This document shows, in pieces, positions 5,305 to 37,660 of a stretch of 40,106 nt of DNA; position 1 is the first letter of the stretch, and each line of letters begins with the position of its first letter. The DNA is from a virus. The position numbers and the translations under genes were made by a program. The notes beneath the pieces were generated by a model. The model was not told the DNA's origin. It saw nothing but the letters and a program-made list of their open reading frames with translations, and searched no databases. Location of the stretch: positions 1 to 40,106 of IMG/VR virus record IMGVR_UViG_3300037258_000108; one strand, given 5' to 3'.

Positions 5305-5499
5305 ATGCTGATTCTGTCACGCAGACCAGGCGAGTCCATTATTATCAACAACAACATCAAGATTACATTTCTTGGTAATCAGCGCTTTAATCAAGGTCGA
5401 CTAGGGATTGAAGCGCCCTCTGACATCTCCATCCACAGAGAAGAAATCCAAGAGAAAATAAATAGAGCAAAAGAGGAAGGCATCCATGAACACGACTGA
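5305..5499 (+). CDS. csrA: CsrA-family translational regulator
   Basis: A 64-aa protein of full CsrA/RsmA length. It begins MLILSRRPGESI, keeps the central RLGIEAP and the SIHREEI segment with Arg45, equivalent to the RNA-contacting Arg44 of E. coli CsrA, and L4 and R6 in the first strand. CsrA dimers bind GGA motifs in mRNA leaders and usually block ribosome access. A one-residue insertion (NQRFNQGR) lies in the beta3-beta4 region. AAGGA lies upstream of the ATG. Its unit is driven by the strong operator-controlled promoter, so it is probably made early and acts on host or phage mRNAs. Family assignment is secure; the targets are unknown. Confidence 0.93.
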   Translation: MLILSRRPGESIIINNNIKITFLGNQRFNQGRLGIEAPSDISIHREEIQEKINRAKEEGIHEHD

Positions 5500-6056: not shown

Positions 6057-6262
6057 TTATTCCCAACCATATCTTCACAACCACCTTCTTTCCACAGTTT
6101 AACGTGCAAATCAAGCGATTCTAGGGGCACATCTCCGTTCATCATATCTACCTTATCCTCTGGAGACAAAAGTCGCGTAGAAATCAAATTTGGGCTTACC
6201 CCGTATTTGATACCCAATTTAAACAAAATCGACTTACATTCTTTCTCAGTCAACTTACTCAT
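6053..6262 (-). CDS. Hypothetical protein after the replication initiator (69 aa)
   Basis: The product begins MSKLTEKECKSILFKLGIKYG and has no recognised motif. It overlaps the initiator gene by 8 nt and the next gene by ATGA, so it is translationally coupled on both sides. In lambda the gene after O encodes the helicase loader P. This protein is far too short to be P-like, so a replication role is positional guesswork. Confidence 0.7.
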   Translation of the reverse strand: MSKLTEKECKSILFKLGIKYGVSPNLISTRLLSPEDKVDMMNGDVPLESLDLHVKLWKEGGCEDMVGNK

Positions 6263-7148
6263 CAGTCATTCTCACCGCTGGATTATAATTCGGCTTGAGC
6301 GAAGATAGTAAGCCAGCTAGATGTGATTTAGCAACCTCACGATTCGCAGCCTCCTTAGTCACATCCCTAAATGCCTGCGCTTCTTCCTCATATCGCTTCC
6401 TTTTCTCTCTCTGCTGCGCTTCCTCCTCTTCTCGGATGGACTGCACTGTTACCCCCTTGTAGCCATTTGGAATGCGCCAAGCCCCCTCAGAATGCTTTTT
6501 AATGGCTATATTGATGGCTTTCAATGGCTCGTATTTGGTGGTGGTCATCACAAAGAACAAAATCTGTTGAACAATGTCGTTGGGAAGTTCCTCCAATCCT
6601 TTTGACGAAGCTCTGTCTCGAATCACCACACAAATCTCTTCAGGGGTTTTTTCAGTTAACAAAAAAGAAGAAATAATAACAGGGTCCTTATAATTATTTT
6701 TAGGTTCCTCTTTTAGGTTCCTATTATTAGGTTCAGTGTCCCAATTTTGGGACTGCTTAGGTGTCCCAATTTTGGGACTGCTACCAGTCCCGTTTTTGGG
6801 ACTGCTTATTTTCGAAGCAGTACCGTTTTTGGGACTGCTCTGTGGATAACTTTTACTGGGTTTTTTTGGATCAACCTGAATATAGTTTAATCGCATGATA
6901 GGGACAGATTTTGTACGACCCATAAAGTCGCCAGTATAAGAAAGGATATTTTTGTCAATTAGGGATTGCCGGATTTTGAGTATGGTTTTCCGGTCCATGA
7001 GGGTGTCTGTCATTAAGCGTTTTATGCTAGGCCAGCACTCGCCTTTTTCGCCGCATCTGTCGGCTATTGATAAAAGCAGTAGTTTTTCGGTTGTCGTCAC
7101 TTCTTTTTTGGTAAGAGTCCATACCCACTTTGTTGCGTCTACACTCAT
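6255..7148 (-). CDS. Replication initiator, lambda O/HTH_36-like
   Basis: A 297-aa protein. The N-terminal ~100 residues (KWVWTLTKKEVTTTEKLLLLSIADRCGEKGECWPSIKRLM...) form a winged-helix domain of the type found in phage and plasmid initiators. Residues about 105-138 are a low-complexity run (SSPKNGT, SSPKIGT, SQNWDT) encoded by DNA iterons. A helical C-terminal half with an EEEEAQQREKRKRYEEE coiled coil follows. In lambda O the same plan holds: N-terminal iteron binding, an origin inside the gene, and a C-terminal half for partner contacts. ATG 7148 with AAGGA upstream is preferred to the TTG at 7151. A 21-bp operator lies 96 bp upstream. Confidence 0.85.
   Translation of the reverse strand: MSVDATKWVWTLTKKEVTTTEKLLLLSIADRCGEKGECWPSIKRLMTDTLMDRKTILKIRQSLIDKNILSYTGDFMGRTKSVPIMRLNYIQVDPKKPSKSYPQSSPKNGTASKISSPKNGTGSSPKIGTPKQSQNWDTEPNNRNLKEEPKNNYKDPVIISSFLLTEKTPEEICVVIRDRASSKGLEELPNDIVQQILFFVMTTTKYEPLKAINIAIKKHSEGAWRIPNGYKGVTVQSIREEEEAQQREKRKRYEEEAQAFRDVTKEAANREVAKSHLAGLLSSLKPNYNPAVRMTDE
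6641..6849. other. Putative replication origin inside the initiator gene
   Basis: Four palindromic iterons of the form GTCCC-N6-GGGAC occupy 6738-6753, 6763-6778, 6787-6802 and 6820-6835 (one base differs in the last), each followed by TGCT. A perfect DnaA box (TGTGGATAA, i.e. TTATCCACA on the minus strand) follows at 6841-6849. On the other side, 6641-6735 is AT-rich and holds three TAGGTTC repeats (6701, 6714, 6728), spaced 13-14 bp, like unwinding-element repeats. Iterons plus an AT-rich flank inside the initiator gene is the lambda ori plan. Confidence 0.8.
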
Positions 7149-7226
7149 CAATAAACATCCTTATAGTTATTTGAAGCGAGAATGAGCCTGCCGAATACAA
7201 TGACATAAAAAAATGCTTTTGAAAAT

Positions 7227-8230: not shown

Positions 8231-9442
8231 TCATCCCTTAATGCAAAGTATTTGTTTCAATGTATGAACAATCTCAACCAAGTCGCTTTGAGCCGCCATT
8301 ACCGCATCGATATTCTTATATGCCGAAGGGGTTTCATCAAGCGTTGATTCCCCACTGTTACATTCAACGCCAGCTAATGCTCTAGCATGGTCATCTAAGT
8401 TTACTATCGCTTTCGCTCTTGTACGTGACATGACACGACCTGCTCCATGACTACAGCTATTAAAGCTCTCAGGATTGCCCAAGCCACGCACGATAAATGA
8501 TTTTGCACCCATAGAGCCTGGGATAATACCTAACTGGTCTTTACGAGCTGATACAGCGCCTTTGCGTGTGATCCAAACGTTCTCACCGAAGTGATGTTCT
8601 TTCTGAACGTAGTTGTGATGGCAGTTTACTGAAAACGTGTCACACACTATGTCACGTGATAAGACTTGTGACACAACTCGAATTAGTGTACGCATCATCG
8701 CGCATCGATTCTCTTCAGCAAAATCTTGCGCCCACTGGACAGCATCACAATAGTCTTGGAAGAATTGGCTGCCTTCAGGAAGATATGCGAGGTCTTTGTC
8801 AGGCAGATGAATGAAGTATTTCTCCATGTCTTTCTTAGCCAGTTCAATGAAGTGTGAGCCTATAGCATTCCCAACACCACGCGAGCCACTATGAAGCATA
8901 AACCAAACGTCATTGTTTTCATCAAGACATATCTCAATAAAATGGTTTCCACCCCCAAGGGTTCCAAGATGGTTAACGTTGTTAGTATTCTTGAATCGTG
9001 GGTACTTTGCAGTTATTTCTTCAAAGTCTTTATTTAAGTGACTATTCCAGCGATTTAAAATGTCTTCTGGTATCAATCCCGCTTTCCATTGGCCAATCTT
9101 TGTAGCAGGATTGCTTCCGACAGGGATAGCCGCTTCAATTGAAAAACGCAAAGATGTTAATGAATCAGGCAAGTCACTGGCTTTCAAGTTAGTCTTGTAG
9201 GCCATCATGCCACAACCCAAATCAACACCAACAGCAGCCGGAATAATTGCTTTCTTTGTCGCTATTACACTTCCAATAGTGGAACCCTTACCCGCATGAA
9301 CATCGGGCATGACGGCAACGTGTTTGTAGATGAATGGCATTGTAGCCAGTTTCTCTACTTGCTTTTGCGCTTCTTCTTCAAACAGTACGCCATCAACCCA
9401 TGCTTTAATTAGGCTCGCACCATCCGTATTTATTATCTTCAT
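8231..9442 (-). CDS. rtcB: RNA-splicing ligase RtcB (3'-phosphate/5'-OH RNA ligase)
   Basis: A 403-aa protein, the length of bacterial RtcB. It joins RNA 2',3'-cyclic phosphate or 3'-phosphate ends to 5'-OH ends with GTP and Mn2+. All signature blocks are visible: MPDVHAGKGSTIG (45-57), GVDLGCGM with metal-ligand Cys77, NHLGTLGGGNHFIE (157-170), HSGSRGVG (184-191), NCHHNY (273-278), and NSCSHGAGR with the guanylylated His332. It should be active. It sits in the early leftward unit, and the phage also carries four tRNAs, which suggests repair of tRNAs cut by host anticodon nucleases. No archease or rtcA gene is adjacent. Confidence 0.96.
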   Translation of the reverse strand: MKIINTDGASLIKAWVDGVLFEEEAQKQVEKLATMPFIYKHVAVMPDVHAGKGSTIGSVIATKKAIIPAAVGVDLGCGMMAYKTNLKASDLPDSLTSLRFSIEAAIPVGSNPATKIGQWKAGLIPEDILNRWNSHLNKDFEEITAKYPRFKNTNNVNHLGTLGGGNHFIEICLDENNDVWFMLHSGSRGVGNAIGSHFIELAKKDMEKYFIHLPDKDLAYLPEGSQFFQDYCDAVQWAQDFAEENRCAMMRTLIRVVSQVLSRDIVCDTFSVNCHHNYVQKEHHFGENVWITRKGAVSARKDQLGIIPGSMGAKSFIVRGLGNPESFNSCSHGAGRVMSRTRAKAIVNLDDHARALAGVECNSGESTLDETPSAYKNIDAVMAAQSDLVEIVHTLKQILCIKG

Positions 9443-16542: not shown

Positions 16543-17517
16543 CTAGTTAGTAGTTACTGTACAACCCCTTCCTACCAATGTAGCCTTTGCAGCCAATCCT
16601 GTAGCTGAAGGTGTTGAGTTTGTGCCTCCGCTAAGGTTCACTGTAAAGTTATTATAAGATGTTGTCCCACCTGTCCCATCGAGTGCCGCCAATGAAACCA
16701 AAATACCATCAACACTTGCCTGATTTAATTTACCGCCTGTCATAGTTACGTTTCCTCCAACTGCTTTTAAGGTCGAGCCAAAAGAAAAAGTCGTCATATT
16801 AGCTATGGAAGAGAAAGCTAACTGATTCCCTATTGATACAATAGCTGGAAGACTTAACGAAGTAACCGAGTTAAGTGCTGCGTTTGTAGCTCCGATAATG
16901 TATTGAAGGCTCGATAAATCTATGGATGTTGCAGATGTAGCAGCCAAAGACCATCCGCCTCCAATATAAACCAAGTTAGTTAATGTGACAGAAGTCGCAC
17001 CGTTAACAGATGGCCCAAAATTTCCATTAACTGCTATGAGAGAAGCTAAAGACAATGATGTTAATGAATTTGCTGTAAATGAAATCCCACCACCCACATA
17101 CTTTAATGCGGACATTGATAACGTTGTAAGAGCTGCATAAGTTCCACCAAAATCGCTTGAGAACTGAATCAAACTGCTTGCGGTTAGACTGGTTATGGTT
17201 GGAATGGTTCCGGTAAATGCGTTATTCACTTGCGTAATAGAGCCAAAATCAATCGCTGTTGCATAAGGCATAGCCGTACCAACACCGTTTGCCGCACTAC
17301 TATTGTATCTAGCAAGTAACACAGGCGTATAGACGTTAGCAGCTAATGAAGCGGCTTCCCAAACTGTAAATAAACAGCCAGGGAATACACCCGTAACTGA
17401 CGCACTAGGATTGGCTGGAATTAAAGCAAGACCACCAACCGTATTTGCAGCATTTGCCAAAGCAGTTCTTACACCACTACTCATAGGGGTTTGAACCTGA
17501 TTAGTTGTGCCAGTCAT
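16543..17517 (-). CDS. Repeat-rich fibre/adhesin protein, paralogue 3 (324 aa)
   Basis: Third of three tandem paralogues. A conserved N-terminus (MTGTTNQVQTP, then SGVRTAL) is followed by about eight repeats of 20-25 residues of the type L-TSLSLASLIAVNGNFG and VTLTNLVYIGGGWS, with regular leucines, small residues and glycines. This suggests a leucine-rich or beta-solenoid fold. A nearly invariant C-terminus (LNQASVDGILVSLAALDG...GRGCTVTTN) closes it. Likely a surface-exposed tail component or receptor-binding protein. The variable middle against fixed ends suggests recombinational diversification. Nine bases separate it from paralogue 2. Confidence 0.8.
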   Translation of the reverse strand: MTGTTNQVQTPMSSGVRTALANAANTVGGLALIPANPSASVTGVFPGCLFTVWEAASLAANVYTPVLLARYNSSAANGVGTAMPYATAIDFGSITQVNNAFTGTIPTITSLTASSLIQFSSDFGGTYAALTTLSMSALKYVGGGISFTANSLTSLSLASLIAVNGNFGPSVNGATSVTLTNLVYIGGGWSLAATSATSIDLSSLQYIIGATNAALNSVTSLSLPAIVSIGNQLAFSSIANMTTFSFGSTLKAVGGNVTMTGGKLNQASVDGILVSLAALDGTGGTTSYNNFTVNLSGGTNSTPSATGLAAKATLVGRGCTVTTN

Positions 17518-17526
17518 ATTATCCCC

Positions 17527-18504
17527 TTAGTTTGTTGTCACAGTGCAACCACGGCCAACCAATGTGGCCTTAGCAGCTAAGCCAGTAGCGCTTGGTGTTG
17601 AGCTAGTCCCACCAGATAAATTCACGGTTAAGTTGCTCCATGCTGTGGTTCCATTTGTTCCGTCCAGCGCAGCTAAGCTAACTAGAATTCCATCTACTGA
17701 CGCCTGATTTAAGGCTGCATTTTGAATAAGAACGTTATTGCCTATTTGTTTAAGCGTAGAGCCAAAAGAGAATGTAACCAAGCTAACTGTAGTCAAAGAA
17801 ACCGCCTGTAGTATTCTAACAATGGCTGGTAAGTTCAATGTGGTAAGCGCTGCAAATGTTCCATTAAAAAGACCACCAACATATTGCAAACTACTATAAT
17901 CAATGGAAGTCACTAATGGGCATATACCACCACAGTTTAAACCGCAATAAATAAGATTAGGCGCTGAAATTGATGTAATAACGCTCATAACAGGCCCAAA
18001 ACTATTACCTACATATTGCAATTGAGGTAATGATAAGGCTCCTGGTAATGTGGCTGCGGCTACTGAAAAATTGCCACCTGTATATTGAAGCAATGGCAAT
18101 GTAAGCGTAGTTAAAGCGACCATTGTAGCCGAAAAATCAGTGTTAATCTGAACTAGACTATTTGCCACAAAGCTTGTCAGAGTAGCTATAGTCCCTGTTA
18201 TGCCGTTATTAATTTGCTGAATAGTACCTAGATTTAATGTTGTTAGTGTAGGCAATGCCTGTCCACTTCCATTCCCAGCAGCATTATCATAATTCGCTAC
18301 CACCAAAGGTGTTGTATATCCATTCGGGGATATAATTGCATTTTGCCACACCGTGAATAATGGCCCATATAAAGTTCCTGTATAAGAAATACCTGGGTTT
18401 GCTGGTAAGCTAGATATGCCTCCCGCTACTCCTGGATTAAGGGCTAATGCGGTTGGGACGCCTGAACCAAAGGGCGTTTGAACTTGATTGGTAGTGCCTG
18501 TCAT
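17527..18504 (-). CDS. Repeat-rich fibre/adhesin protein, paralogue 2 (325 aa)
   Basis: Middle of the triplet. Opens MTGTTNQVQTPFGSGVPTAL and ends with the same NQASVDGILVSLAALDG...RGCTVTTN block as its neighbours. The middle repeats (LTTLTLPLLQYTGGNF, LSLPQLQYVGNSFG, ISAPNLIYCGLNCGG) keep the periodicity but differ in sequence, and this copy alone has several cysteines (YCGLNCGGICP) there. A role in binding host surface structures is inferred. Confidence 0.8.
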   Translation of the reverse strand: MTGTTNQVQTPFGSGVPTALALNPGVAGGISSLPANPGISYTGTLYGPLFTVWQNAIISPNGYTTPLVVANYDNAAGNGSGQALPTLTTLNLGTIQQINNGITGTIATLTSFVANSLVQINTDFSATMVALTTLTLPLLQYTGGNFSVAAATLPGALSLPQLQYVGNSFGPVMSVITSISAPNLIYCGLNCGGICPLVTSIDYSSLQYVGGLFNGTFAALTTLNLPAIVRILQAVSLTTVSLVTFSFGSTLKQIGNNVLIQNAALNQASVDGILVSLAALDGTNGTTAWSNLTVNLSGGTSSTPSATGLAAKATLVGRGCTVTTN

Positions 18505-18513
18505 AATGACCCC

Positions 18514-19485
18514 TTAGTTAGTAGTGACTGTACAGCCTCGACCTTGAAGCGTAGTCTTTGCTGCTAGACCAGTAGCGCTCGGAGCAGAACTTGTGCCACC
18601 ACTCACATTAACCGTGAAGCCGCTATATGCAGTTGTGCCATTTGTACCATCAAGGGCAGCAAGACTCACTAGAATTCCATCTACACTAGCCTGATTCAAC
18701 TTCGCACCTGTAATGGTGAAGTTGCCACCAACAGCTTTTAATGTAGACCCCATTGAGAATGTGACAAGGTTTGCTGCGGTAGCGGCAATCGTCGTTCCTA
18801 CTTTAACAAGTGCTGGGAAGTTTAATGTTGCCAAAGTCGCAGCAGTAAATGCTATGTTCACTCCAACATATTGCAGTCCTGAAAAATCAACACTGGTCAC
18901 AGCAGAAAAGTTAGGGGCTAAAGCACCACCAATGTAACTCAACAATGGCATTGACAACGTTGTTGTTCCAGTTGAAGTCGCACCCCAATTCGCATTAACC
19001 GCTATCAAAGCTGGCAATGAGAATGTCGGTAAAGTATTAAAGACGCAGTTCATGACGCCGCCAATGTAGGCTAGCGATGGCATCGTTAAGGTAGTTAGTG
19101 AGGCTGCTGTTAAGTTAAAGTCACTGCTTATCTGGATTAGACTATTTGCGACAAGGCTAGTTATGAGTAGCGTTCCAGTCAGCATATTATTTAGGACTTG
19201 AATGCCACCTAAATTTAAAGCCGTGACTGCTGGCAACCCATCACCCCCGCCATTTGGGGCAACGTTATTATATTGGCCAAATGTCAATGGCGTAGTATAA
19301 GAGCCACCAGCAATATTTGCTCCTTGCCATACTGAAAACAATGTCCCATACGGAGAGCCAGTAACTGTAATATTTGGATTTGCAGGGATTTCAGATATTC
19401 CCCCAGCAGCACCAGCGGCCAATCCAAGAGCGGTTGTAACGCCGCTCCCAAAAGGTGTCTGGATCTGATTCGTAGTACCAGTCAT
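18514..19485 (-). CDS. Repeat-rich fibre/adhesin protein, paralogue 1 (323 aa)
   Basis: First of the triplet after the long fibre gene. Same N- and C-terminal blocks (MTGTTNQIQTPFGSGVTTAL; GAKLNQASVDGILVSLAAL). Repeats such as LTTLTMPSLAYIGGVM, TFSLPALIAVNANWG, TTLSMPLLSYIGGAL and VDFSGLQYVGVN define about 22-residue coils. Together with paralogues 2 and 3 it forms a tandem array with 9-nt spacers, probably from gene duplication. The three could assemble as homo- or heterotrimers or serve as alternative receptor binders. Confidence 0.8.
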   Translation of the reverse strand: MTGTTNQIQTPFGSGVTTALGLAAGAAGGISEIPANPNITVTGSPYGTLFSVWQGANIAGGSYTTPLTFGQYNNVAPNGGGDGLPAVTALNLGGIQVLNNMLTGTLLITSLVANSLIQISSDFNLTAASLTTLTMPSLAYIGGVMNCVFNTLPTFSLPALIAVNANWGATSTGTTTLSMPLLSYIGGALAPNFSAVTSVDFSGLQYVGVNIAFTAATLATLNFPALVKVGTTIAATAANLVTFSMGSTLKAVGGNFTITGAKLNQASVDGILVSLAALDGTNGTTAYSGFTVNVSGGTSSAPSATGLAAKTTLQGRGCTVTTN

Positions 19486-36982: not shown

Positions 36983-37068
36983 TCTAATCCCCTTCTCTCA
37001 AACCGTTTACGTTGACGACGACCACCAAACAGCATGTCAAGCATGCGTTGCCGGGCCTTCTTGCTCAT
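36928..37068 (-). CDS. Possible small arginine-rich protein (46 aa)
   Basis: ATG 37068 (also 37077) overlaps the end of the DnaB-N-like gene: MSKKARQRMLDMLFGGRRQR, then KRFERRGLEC. The first 29 residues fill the gap before the 48-aa gene, then the frame overlaps it by 55 nt. The ribosome-binding site is weak. Listed because the gap is otherwise empty. Confidence 0.3.
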   Translation of the reverse strand: MSKKARQRMLDMLFGGRRQRKRFERRGLECHLRKARSLEAKGLRTT

Positions 37069-37660
37069 GAACCCCATCACAATCCCCACACATAAATAGC
37101 TCGTCATGGTAACGTACCATAGCGAGATTCAATTCAGTAATAACACCGAGAATATATTCTTCAGTATGTGCAAATGCGCGAAACTCAGCAGCTACTTCTT
37201 CAAGAAATAACGCCATGTGCTCACGTCGATCGTCATGCTCTACTCTATCTCGAACATGTTCAATTTGAGCAATTGTGTTTTCGGCAATTTCAATCAACTG
37301 ACGTTGTACTGACTTCTCACGAACGATGTCAGCATAAGCATTTAAGTTAGCAGTAGATGCGCAGTCAGCAACTAATTCATAGATTGCTTTATGACTGTTT
37401 GCATATACATCAATAATCATAGGAGGGTCGAAGCGCCCATGCTGTTTATAGACAACATTCATTAACTCGAAGACATCCCTATGGAACACCAATGAGAAGT
37501 CAGCGGCGCATACCTTCTTTGAGATAGCTTCGAACTGATCGCTATCAAGTAACAATCCACCAAGCAATGCTGCTTCAGCTTCAACTGATTGCGGCAGCTT
37601 GCGAAGTTTAATTAACTCAAAACTAACTTTTGCATCCTTACCATTTTCCAACTTACTCAT
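37037..37660 (-). CDS. Free-standing DnaB N-terminal domain protein (207 aa)
   Basis: Residues about 20-125 (LPQSVEAEAALLGGLLLDSDQFEAI..., FSLVFHRDVFELMNVVYKQHGRFDP, LVADCASTANLNAYADIVREKSVQRQLIEIA) match the N-terminal domain of the replicative helicase DnaB: S-EAE-ALLGGL, F....HR..F, ANL.AYA.IVRE.S..RQLI. There is no Walker motif and no RecA-type ATPase domain. Residues 130-207 are a different helical tail with CGDC near the end. In DnaB this domain forms the collar that binds DnaG primase and loader. Alone it could bait host primase or loader, or help load host DnaB. It lies among late genes after the portal. Confidence 0.82.
   Translation of the reverse strand: MSKLENGKDAKVSFELIKLRKLPQSVEAEAALLGGLLLDSDQFEAISKKVCAADFSLVFHRDVFELMNVVYKQHGRFDPPMIIDVYANSHKAIYELVADCASTANLNAYADIVREKSVQRQLIEIAENTIAQIEHVRDRVEHDDRREHMALFLEEVAAEFRAFAHTEEYILGVITELNLAMVRYHDELFMCGDCDGVHEQEGPATHA

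Follow-up and report, generated by a model that had tools for sequence, protein, structure and literature searches.

A probable replication origin nested in a phage initiator gene

Among the closest described systems is phage lambda, whose origin lies centrally in the initiator gene, as does the putative origin of the window, the whole stretch of 40,106 nucleotides analysed here (IMG/VR virus record IMGVR_UViG_3300037258_000108). Lambda and the O origins of Stx phages display four palindromic iterons, whose arms are TCCC/GGGA and whose centre is A-rich, placed in several reading frames like those of the window; the lambda iterons occupy frames 0, 2, 2 and 1, so that multi-frame reading is a lambda solution, and are followed by 50 bp with a GC content of 28%. 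The two systems nevertheless differ in several respects, including (i) iteron length, 18-19 bp in lambda and 16 bp with a 6-bp gap here; (ii) the GAAYCTANNA 12-13-mers, absent from lambda and present in the family of the window; (iii) the initiator, which belongs to HTH_36 here and to PF04492 in lambda; and (iv) a consensus DnaA box beside the iterons and the lack of a P gene in the window record, unlike lambda. The contrast that the preliminary description drew with lambda over the built-in box is correct as far as a consensus sequence is concerned, none occurring in lambda 38000-40600, but goes too far in other respects: in lambda DnaA footprints two box-like sites downstream of pO (PMC3985674), and stimulates pR (PMC7466680), working through transcription (PMC3985674, PMC7466680).

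Other replicons combine comparable elements. The P1 oriL, located within repL, resembles the putative origin of the window in its in-gene position, its AT-rich region and its DnaA boxes, of which it has two, yet mutating its boxes has no significant effect (PMC9948254). Iteron plasmids (P1 oriR, RK2, pSC101) and the 13-mers of oriC provide the precedent for initiator sites, a DnaA box and AT-rich repeats of ~13 bp, as found here (PMC5043065), and Rep proteins recognise specific sequences in single-stranded AT-rich DNA (PMC4081077).

Among named phages, Edwardsiella phage GF-2, E. coli phage phiV10 and Acinetobacter phages encode HTH_36 'primosomal protein I / O-like' proteins of the same family, in operons of the cI-cro-cII-O-P style. 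Most of these genes contain palindromic iterons in the linker, and several are followed by a P or DnaB-like helicase gene; they contain no DnaA box, and GF-2 and phiV10 show ATCCC half-sites, unlike the window. In the phiV10 gene (L293), inspection by eye reveals at ~nt 400-450 a tandem 12-bp repeat, AACCAGTCATAT, directly after the iterons, at the place that GAAYCTANNA occupies in other family members.

Judged from its sequence features, the 150 bp at 6701-6849 very probably constitute a replication origin nested in the linker-coding DNA of the initiator and built on the lambda O/ori plan. As the preliminary description had proposed, both position and order match this plan, with an N-terminal DNA-binding domain, iterons in linker DNA and an AT-rich segment 3' of them. 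To the lambda arrangement, studied chiefly in lambdoid coliphages, the analysis adds a demonstration across a whole family, the half-site pattern and the 12-13-mer, and it carries this arrangement over to the HTH_36 initiators of Pseudomonadota.

Architecture of the locus and the initiator

The coordinates of the features are collected in Table 1.

Table 1. Features of the putative origin and associated genes in the window
Feature	Position	Strand	Remarks
Putative initiator gene	6255..7151	-	N-terminal winged helix, disordered linker, helical C-terminus; ORF call
D51-R52-K53-T54 codons, recognition helix start	6987..6998	-	numbering from ATG 7148
DnaA box TTATCCACA	6841..6849	-	gene strand; 5 bp upstream (gene sense) of first iteron
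Iteron 1 GTCCCaaaaacGGTAC	6820..6835	-	one mismatch (GTACC)
Iteron 2 GTCCCaaaaacGGGAC	6787..6802	-	perfect GTCCC-N6-GGGAC
Iteron 3 GTCCCaaaattGGGAC	6763..6778	-	perfect; frame 1, encodes SPKIGT
Iteron 4 GTCCCaaaattGGGAC	6738..6753	-	perfect; frame 2, encodes SQNWD
GAACCTA direct repeat 1	6728..6734	-	starts 3 bp past iteron 4
GAACCTA direct repeat 2	6714..6720	-	other reading frame
GAACCTA direct repeat 3	6701..6707	-	TAGGTTC match
AT-rich putative unwinding region	6638..6737	.	GC 26% then 34% per 50 bp
Stand-alone DnaB N-terminal-domain protein	37037..37660	-	207 aa, no helicase domain; PF00772 E=6.8e-18

The initiator comprises 298 aa counted from TTG 7151, with an alternative ATG at 7148. 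It matches PF13730 HTH_36 (E=2.4e-11) as well as phrog_6643 (3.7e-26) and the O-like phrog_678 (1e-11), its PHROG matches being phage replication initiators, several of them named O-like. As regards a possible homology to lambda O, phrog_678, 391 and 345 are common to both proteins, whereas the initiator remains below the curated cut-off of PF04492 (Phage_rep_O), the Pfam family of lambda O. The AlphaFold2 model displays a confident winged helix (pLDDT >90 across aa 1-90), a disordered linker that takes in the iterons and the repeats (pLDDT <50 for the greater part of aa 96-163), and a helical C-terminus. A sequence search of the PDB disclosed no lambda O-like structure, and Foldseek with the model returned weak winged-helix matches only (best E 3.5e-3), including entries titled initiator or Rep (4pt7, 4pta, 5kbj); the predicted viral structures that match the model are phage HTH/replication proteins.

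The tandem palindromic iterons lie inside the initiator coding sequence, between the DNA-binding domain and the C-terminus, and the AT-rich region follows directly 3' of them, as in lambda-type origins. The four iterons are spaced by 25, 24 and 33 bp, and the whole window contains five GTCCC-N6-GGGAC sites with at most one mismatch against 0.30 expected, a number reached by no shuffle. The preliminary description had located the block at 6641-6849, which is right as to place, the features themselves spanning 6701-6849; its four GTCCC-N6-GGGAC iterons are likewise all there, with the positions and spacing it gave, although just three are perfect and one is mismatched. Its AT-rich flank with three TAGGTTC repeats was found where it had been reported, and its assignment of these features to the coding DNA of a low-complexity linker agrees with the disorder that AlphaFold2 predicts.

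Iterons across the family

With the single protein as query, neither viral nor genome contigs yielded a close relative, and a ten-homolog profile was required. Two tandem GTCCC-N6-GGGAC sites were found by scanning in 73 viral contigs, ~20 of which, besides the window, have a gene with the winged helix of the initiator, and the profile search, blind to palindromes, added 129 loci. The dereplicated set comprises 80 genes, 65 of them, the window included, picked irrespective of palindromes.

Leaving the window aside, the 64 unbiased homologs show a sharp maximum of palindromes with arms of 5 bp where the gap is 6 bp (97 versus 24 in synonymous shuffles); other gap lengths are also raised, ~two-fold, as the whole-gene shuffle permits, linker codons being biased. 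Iterons exceed all 40 synonymous shuffles in 59 of the 80 genes, and in 48 of the 65 unbiased ones. Relatives that keep the protein linker and lose the palindromes would have spoken against an origin; instead, the palindromes are kept in these 59 of 80 homologs.

The DnaA box

Taken alone, the box in the window is weak, TTATNCACA occurring twice against 2.4 expected, and it becomes convincing because of the relatives only. Seven strict DnaA boxes, belonging to six genes, lie in the 150 bp that precede the 51 arrays, versus 0.1 expected; one of the seven, at -123, is probably there by chance. None occurs within or 3' of these arrays, and distant flanks are at chance level. A scan of the collection for a box plus two iterons, in both orientations, retrieved seven contigs, all with O-like genes and all with TTATCCACA, whereas a scrambled-box control gave no matches. 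The consensus box thus adjoins the array above chance, as in a DnaA-assisted iteron origin.

In several lineages the box starts 12-14 bp before the first iteron, or slightly further upstream. Across relatives it is read in two sense frames and in reverse, encoding YPQ in the window, LST in others and VDN in reverse; the tree, whose resolution is poor, implies a minimum of 5-8 gains or losses of the box, and it is absent from 45 of the 51 arrays. This recurrence in a minority, with changes of frame and orientation, indicates DNA selected in some phages and not a feature of the family. The box adjoining the iterons, as first described, is therefore confirmed in place and by its recurrence, with the qualification that it is optional and missing in most relatives.

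The origin could well be real and of the O type with the box taking no part in initiation, as a leftover or a site for transcription only, a reading of considerable plausibility that falls somewhat short of an even chance. It is favoured by the many arrays that do without a box, by the dispensable boxes of P1 oriL (PMC9948254) and by lambda, in which DnaA acts via stimulation of transcription (PMC7466680). It fits poorly with the placement near the first iteron in several lineages, in two sense frames and in reverse orientation, with the constant TTATCCACA form of the scan matches, with the repeated changes on the tree and with L204, where box and iteron are duplicated as a unit (L204:1878-1939; TTATCCACA-ACCA-GTCCC twice). 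The best reading of these patterns is that DnaA would serve as an optional helper at a lambda-plan origin, and the optional box offers a natural experiment on how a phage origin comes to depend on the initiator of its host.

Iteron half-sites and recognition-helix residues

The iteron arms read GTNCC in most genes, whereas some clades carry ATCCC, AACCC, TACCC, GTGCC, GTGGG or GTCGG; in these clade-specific half-sites both arms are altered together. With half-site classes assigned by hand, residue 53 follows the inner bases, with K accompanying CC in 63 genes, E accompanying GG in four and H accompanying GG in two (three exceptions); L115, where H is paired with GTGCC, is an exception. Residue 52 follows the outer base, R being found with G in 59 genes and other residues with other bases in 11, the sole exception being a gene whose sites are mixed. 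A predictive scan for arrays of GTCGG sites retrieved three O-like genes, two of them near-identical, with E in all; the corresponding GTGGG scan found no O-like gene with two perfect copies, so that K53H together with GG is seen in L088 and L089 alone. On the tree the association comprises one or two supported pairs and the sign test is not significant. Two residues of the recognition helix, R52 and K53, thus appear to track the iteron half-site, in a pattern that is strong and, with few independent changes on the tree, statistically weak.

Such co-variation indicates binding only, and a winged-helix protein that binds palindromes within its own gene could repress it; the palindromes might accordingly be autoregulatory operators rather than parts of an origin. 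We consider this very improbable, as the sites lie mid-gene, at ~300 bp from its start, and form tandem arrays that have a fixed region of AT-rich directional repeats 3' of them, and the corresponding layout in lambda is a proven origin (PMC5043065, PMC7466680).

Directional repeats and reading frames

TAGGTTC, at 6701, 6714 and 6728, corresponds to GAACCTA on the gene strand and is weak by window counts alone (7 versus 3.8 expected). In the 80 bp 3' of the 51 arrays, GAAYCT occurs in 97 copies versus 20 in synonymous shuffles (maximum 28), and none is found in reverse orientation. The copies are 12-13 bp apart, the first standing 3 bp past the last iteron in 30 genes, and in 26 genes they occupy two frames, giving E[SP] or NL. 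Of the 65 unbiased genes, 51 possess a spaced pair versus 3.7 expected, and such pairs also occur in genes with differing half-sites or undetectable iterons. The repeat, with the wider consensus GAAYCTANNA, is on this evidence a second family-wide directional element, which the preliminary description had not recognised as conserved.

The repeats coincide with a dip in GC content, 26% in the 50 bp following the array compared with 43% for the window, and a family mean change of -0.089 +/- 0.009 over the first 50 bp 3' of arrays; GAAYCTANNA is therefore read as a candidate unwinding element. Its role may be likened to that of the 13-mers of oriC and iteron plasmids (PMC5043065, PMC4081077). Being kept despite differing iterons, the 12-13-mer points to a common opening step, involving single-strand recognition or a host factor, that has no counterpart in lambda. 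Together, the half-site and recognition-helix correspondence, the 3-bp junction and the 12-13-bp directional repeats supply sequence rules by which origins can be found in uncultured phages.

Relatives use up to three frames for their iterons, with two or three in many genes. In the window, iterons 3 and 4 agree at 22 of 22 bp and, the two copies being set 25 bp apart, this segment is translated once as SSPKIGT and once as QSQNWD. A peptide-level explanation, in which the repeats would belong to the low-complexity linker as a protein and be conserved for the sake of its amino acids, is hardly credible and was rejected on the frame and synonymous-shuffle tests: SPKNGT-like peptides do recur in many homologs, but one DNA read in two or three frames gives the unrelated SPKNGT, SQNWD and VPKTGP, the 12-13-mers likewise give E[SP] or NL, and synonymous shuffling destroys the signal. 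The iterons are, by these comparisons, DNA-level signals kept whatever amino acids they encode, and the linker peptide would be a by-product of the DNA, flexible, sequence-free and readable in any frame. Neither the GAAYCTANNA repeat nor the SPKNGT linker was found described in searches of open-licence papers.

Proposed mechanism

The analysis demonstrates that iterons, repeats and box are conserved as DNA, that they keep a common order and spacing, and that the half-site co-varies with the recognition helix; from these patterns we infer how binding, melting, initiation, DnaA binding and helicase supply may proceed. Dimers of the N-terminal winged helix of the initiator would bind the four iterons and form an O-some-like complex, the strain of which would then be passed to the AT-rich region starting 3 bp away. 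There, the GAAYCTANNA repeats, 12-13 bp apart, would act as the unwinding element, probably because, once single-stranded, they present specific sequences to which the initiator or some host factor could bind, and the high-affinity DnaA box just outside the array would let host DnaA join. The GC skew, which follows gene direction and is uninformative, shows no extremum at 6.7 kb.

Helicase supply and neighbouring genes

No match to DnaB_C, lambda P (PF06992) or DnaC/IstB was found in the record, which is possibly incomplete, and the helicase loader P that stands beside O in lambda-type loci is accordingly missing from it. Recruitment of the host helicase by DnaA in such a phage is plausible, if speculative. 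Among the 80 homologs, 25 have a gene of a DnaB-like helicase cluster downstream, usually immediately, some members of this cluster being short or fused to primase; other homologs carry lambda P, and P or DnaB is the next gene in many relatives. DnaB_C or P accompanies one of nine box carriers and nine of 19 others, several contigs being partial, so that these counts do no more than lean towards an association of the box with phages devoid of a helicase or P.

A wider proposal, which we put forward tentatively and regard as less likely than not, is that these loci represent an undescribed large class of in-gene phage origins, combining (i) an optional DnaA box, (ii) clade-specific iterons co-evolving with two recognition-helix residues and (iii) a family-wide directional GAAYCTANNA 12-13-mer unwinding element, and that in phages which, like this one, have no helicase or P of their own the box replaces the loader, DnaA and host DnaB being brought through it to the initiator of the phage.

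The record also encodes a Sak4-like/SSB/nuclease/DEAD-helicase block. The 207-aa DnaB-N protein, a possible partner of the initiator, sits in the structural-gene block and could poach or inhibit host replication proteins. Elsewhere in the window, the phage encodes a CsrA-like regulator (5305-5496, + strand; PF02599 1.5e-20, phrog_9500), an RtcB-like RNA ligase of 403 aa (8231-9442, - strand; by eye from the translation) and three tandem paralogs of ~323 aa (16543-19485, - strand), which have the N-terminus MTGTTNQ(V/I)QTP in common and are possibly tail or adhesion proteins.
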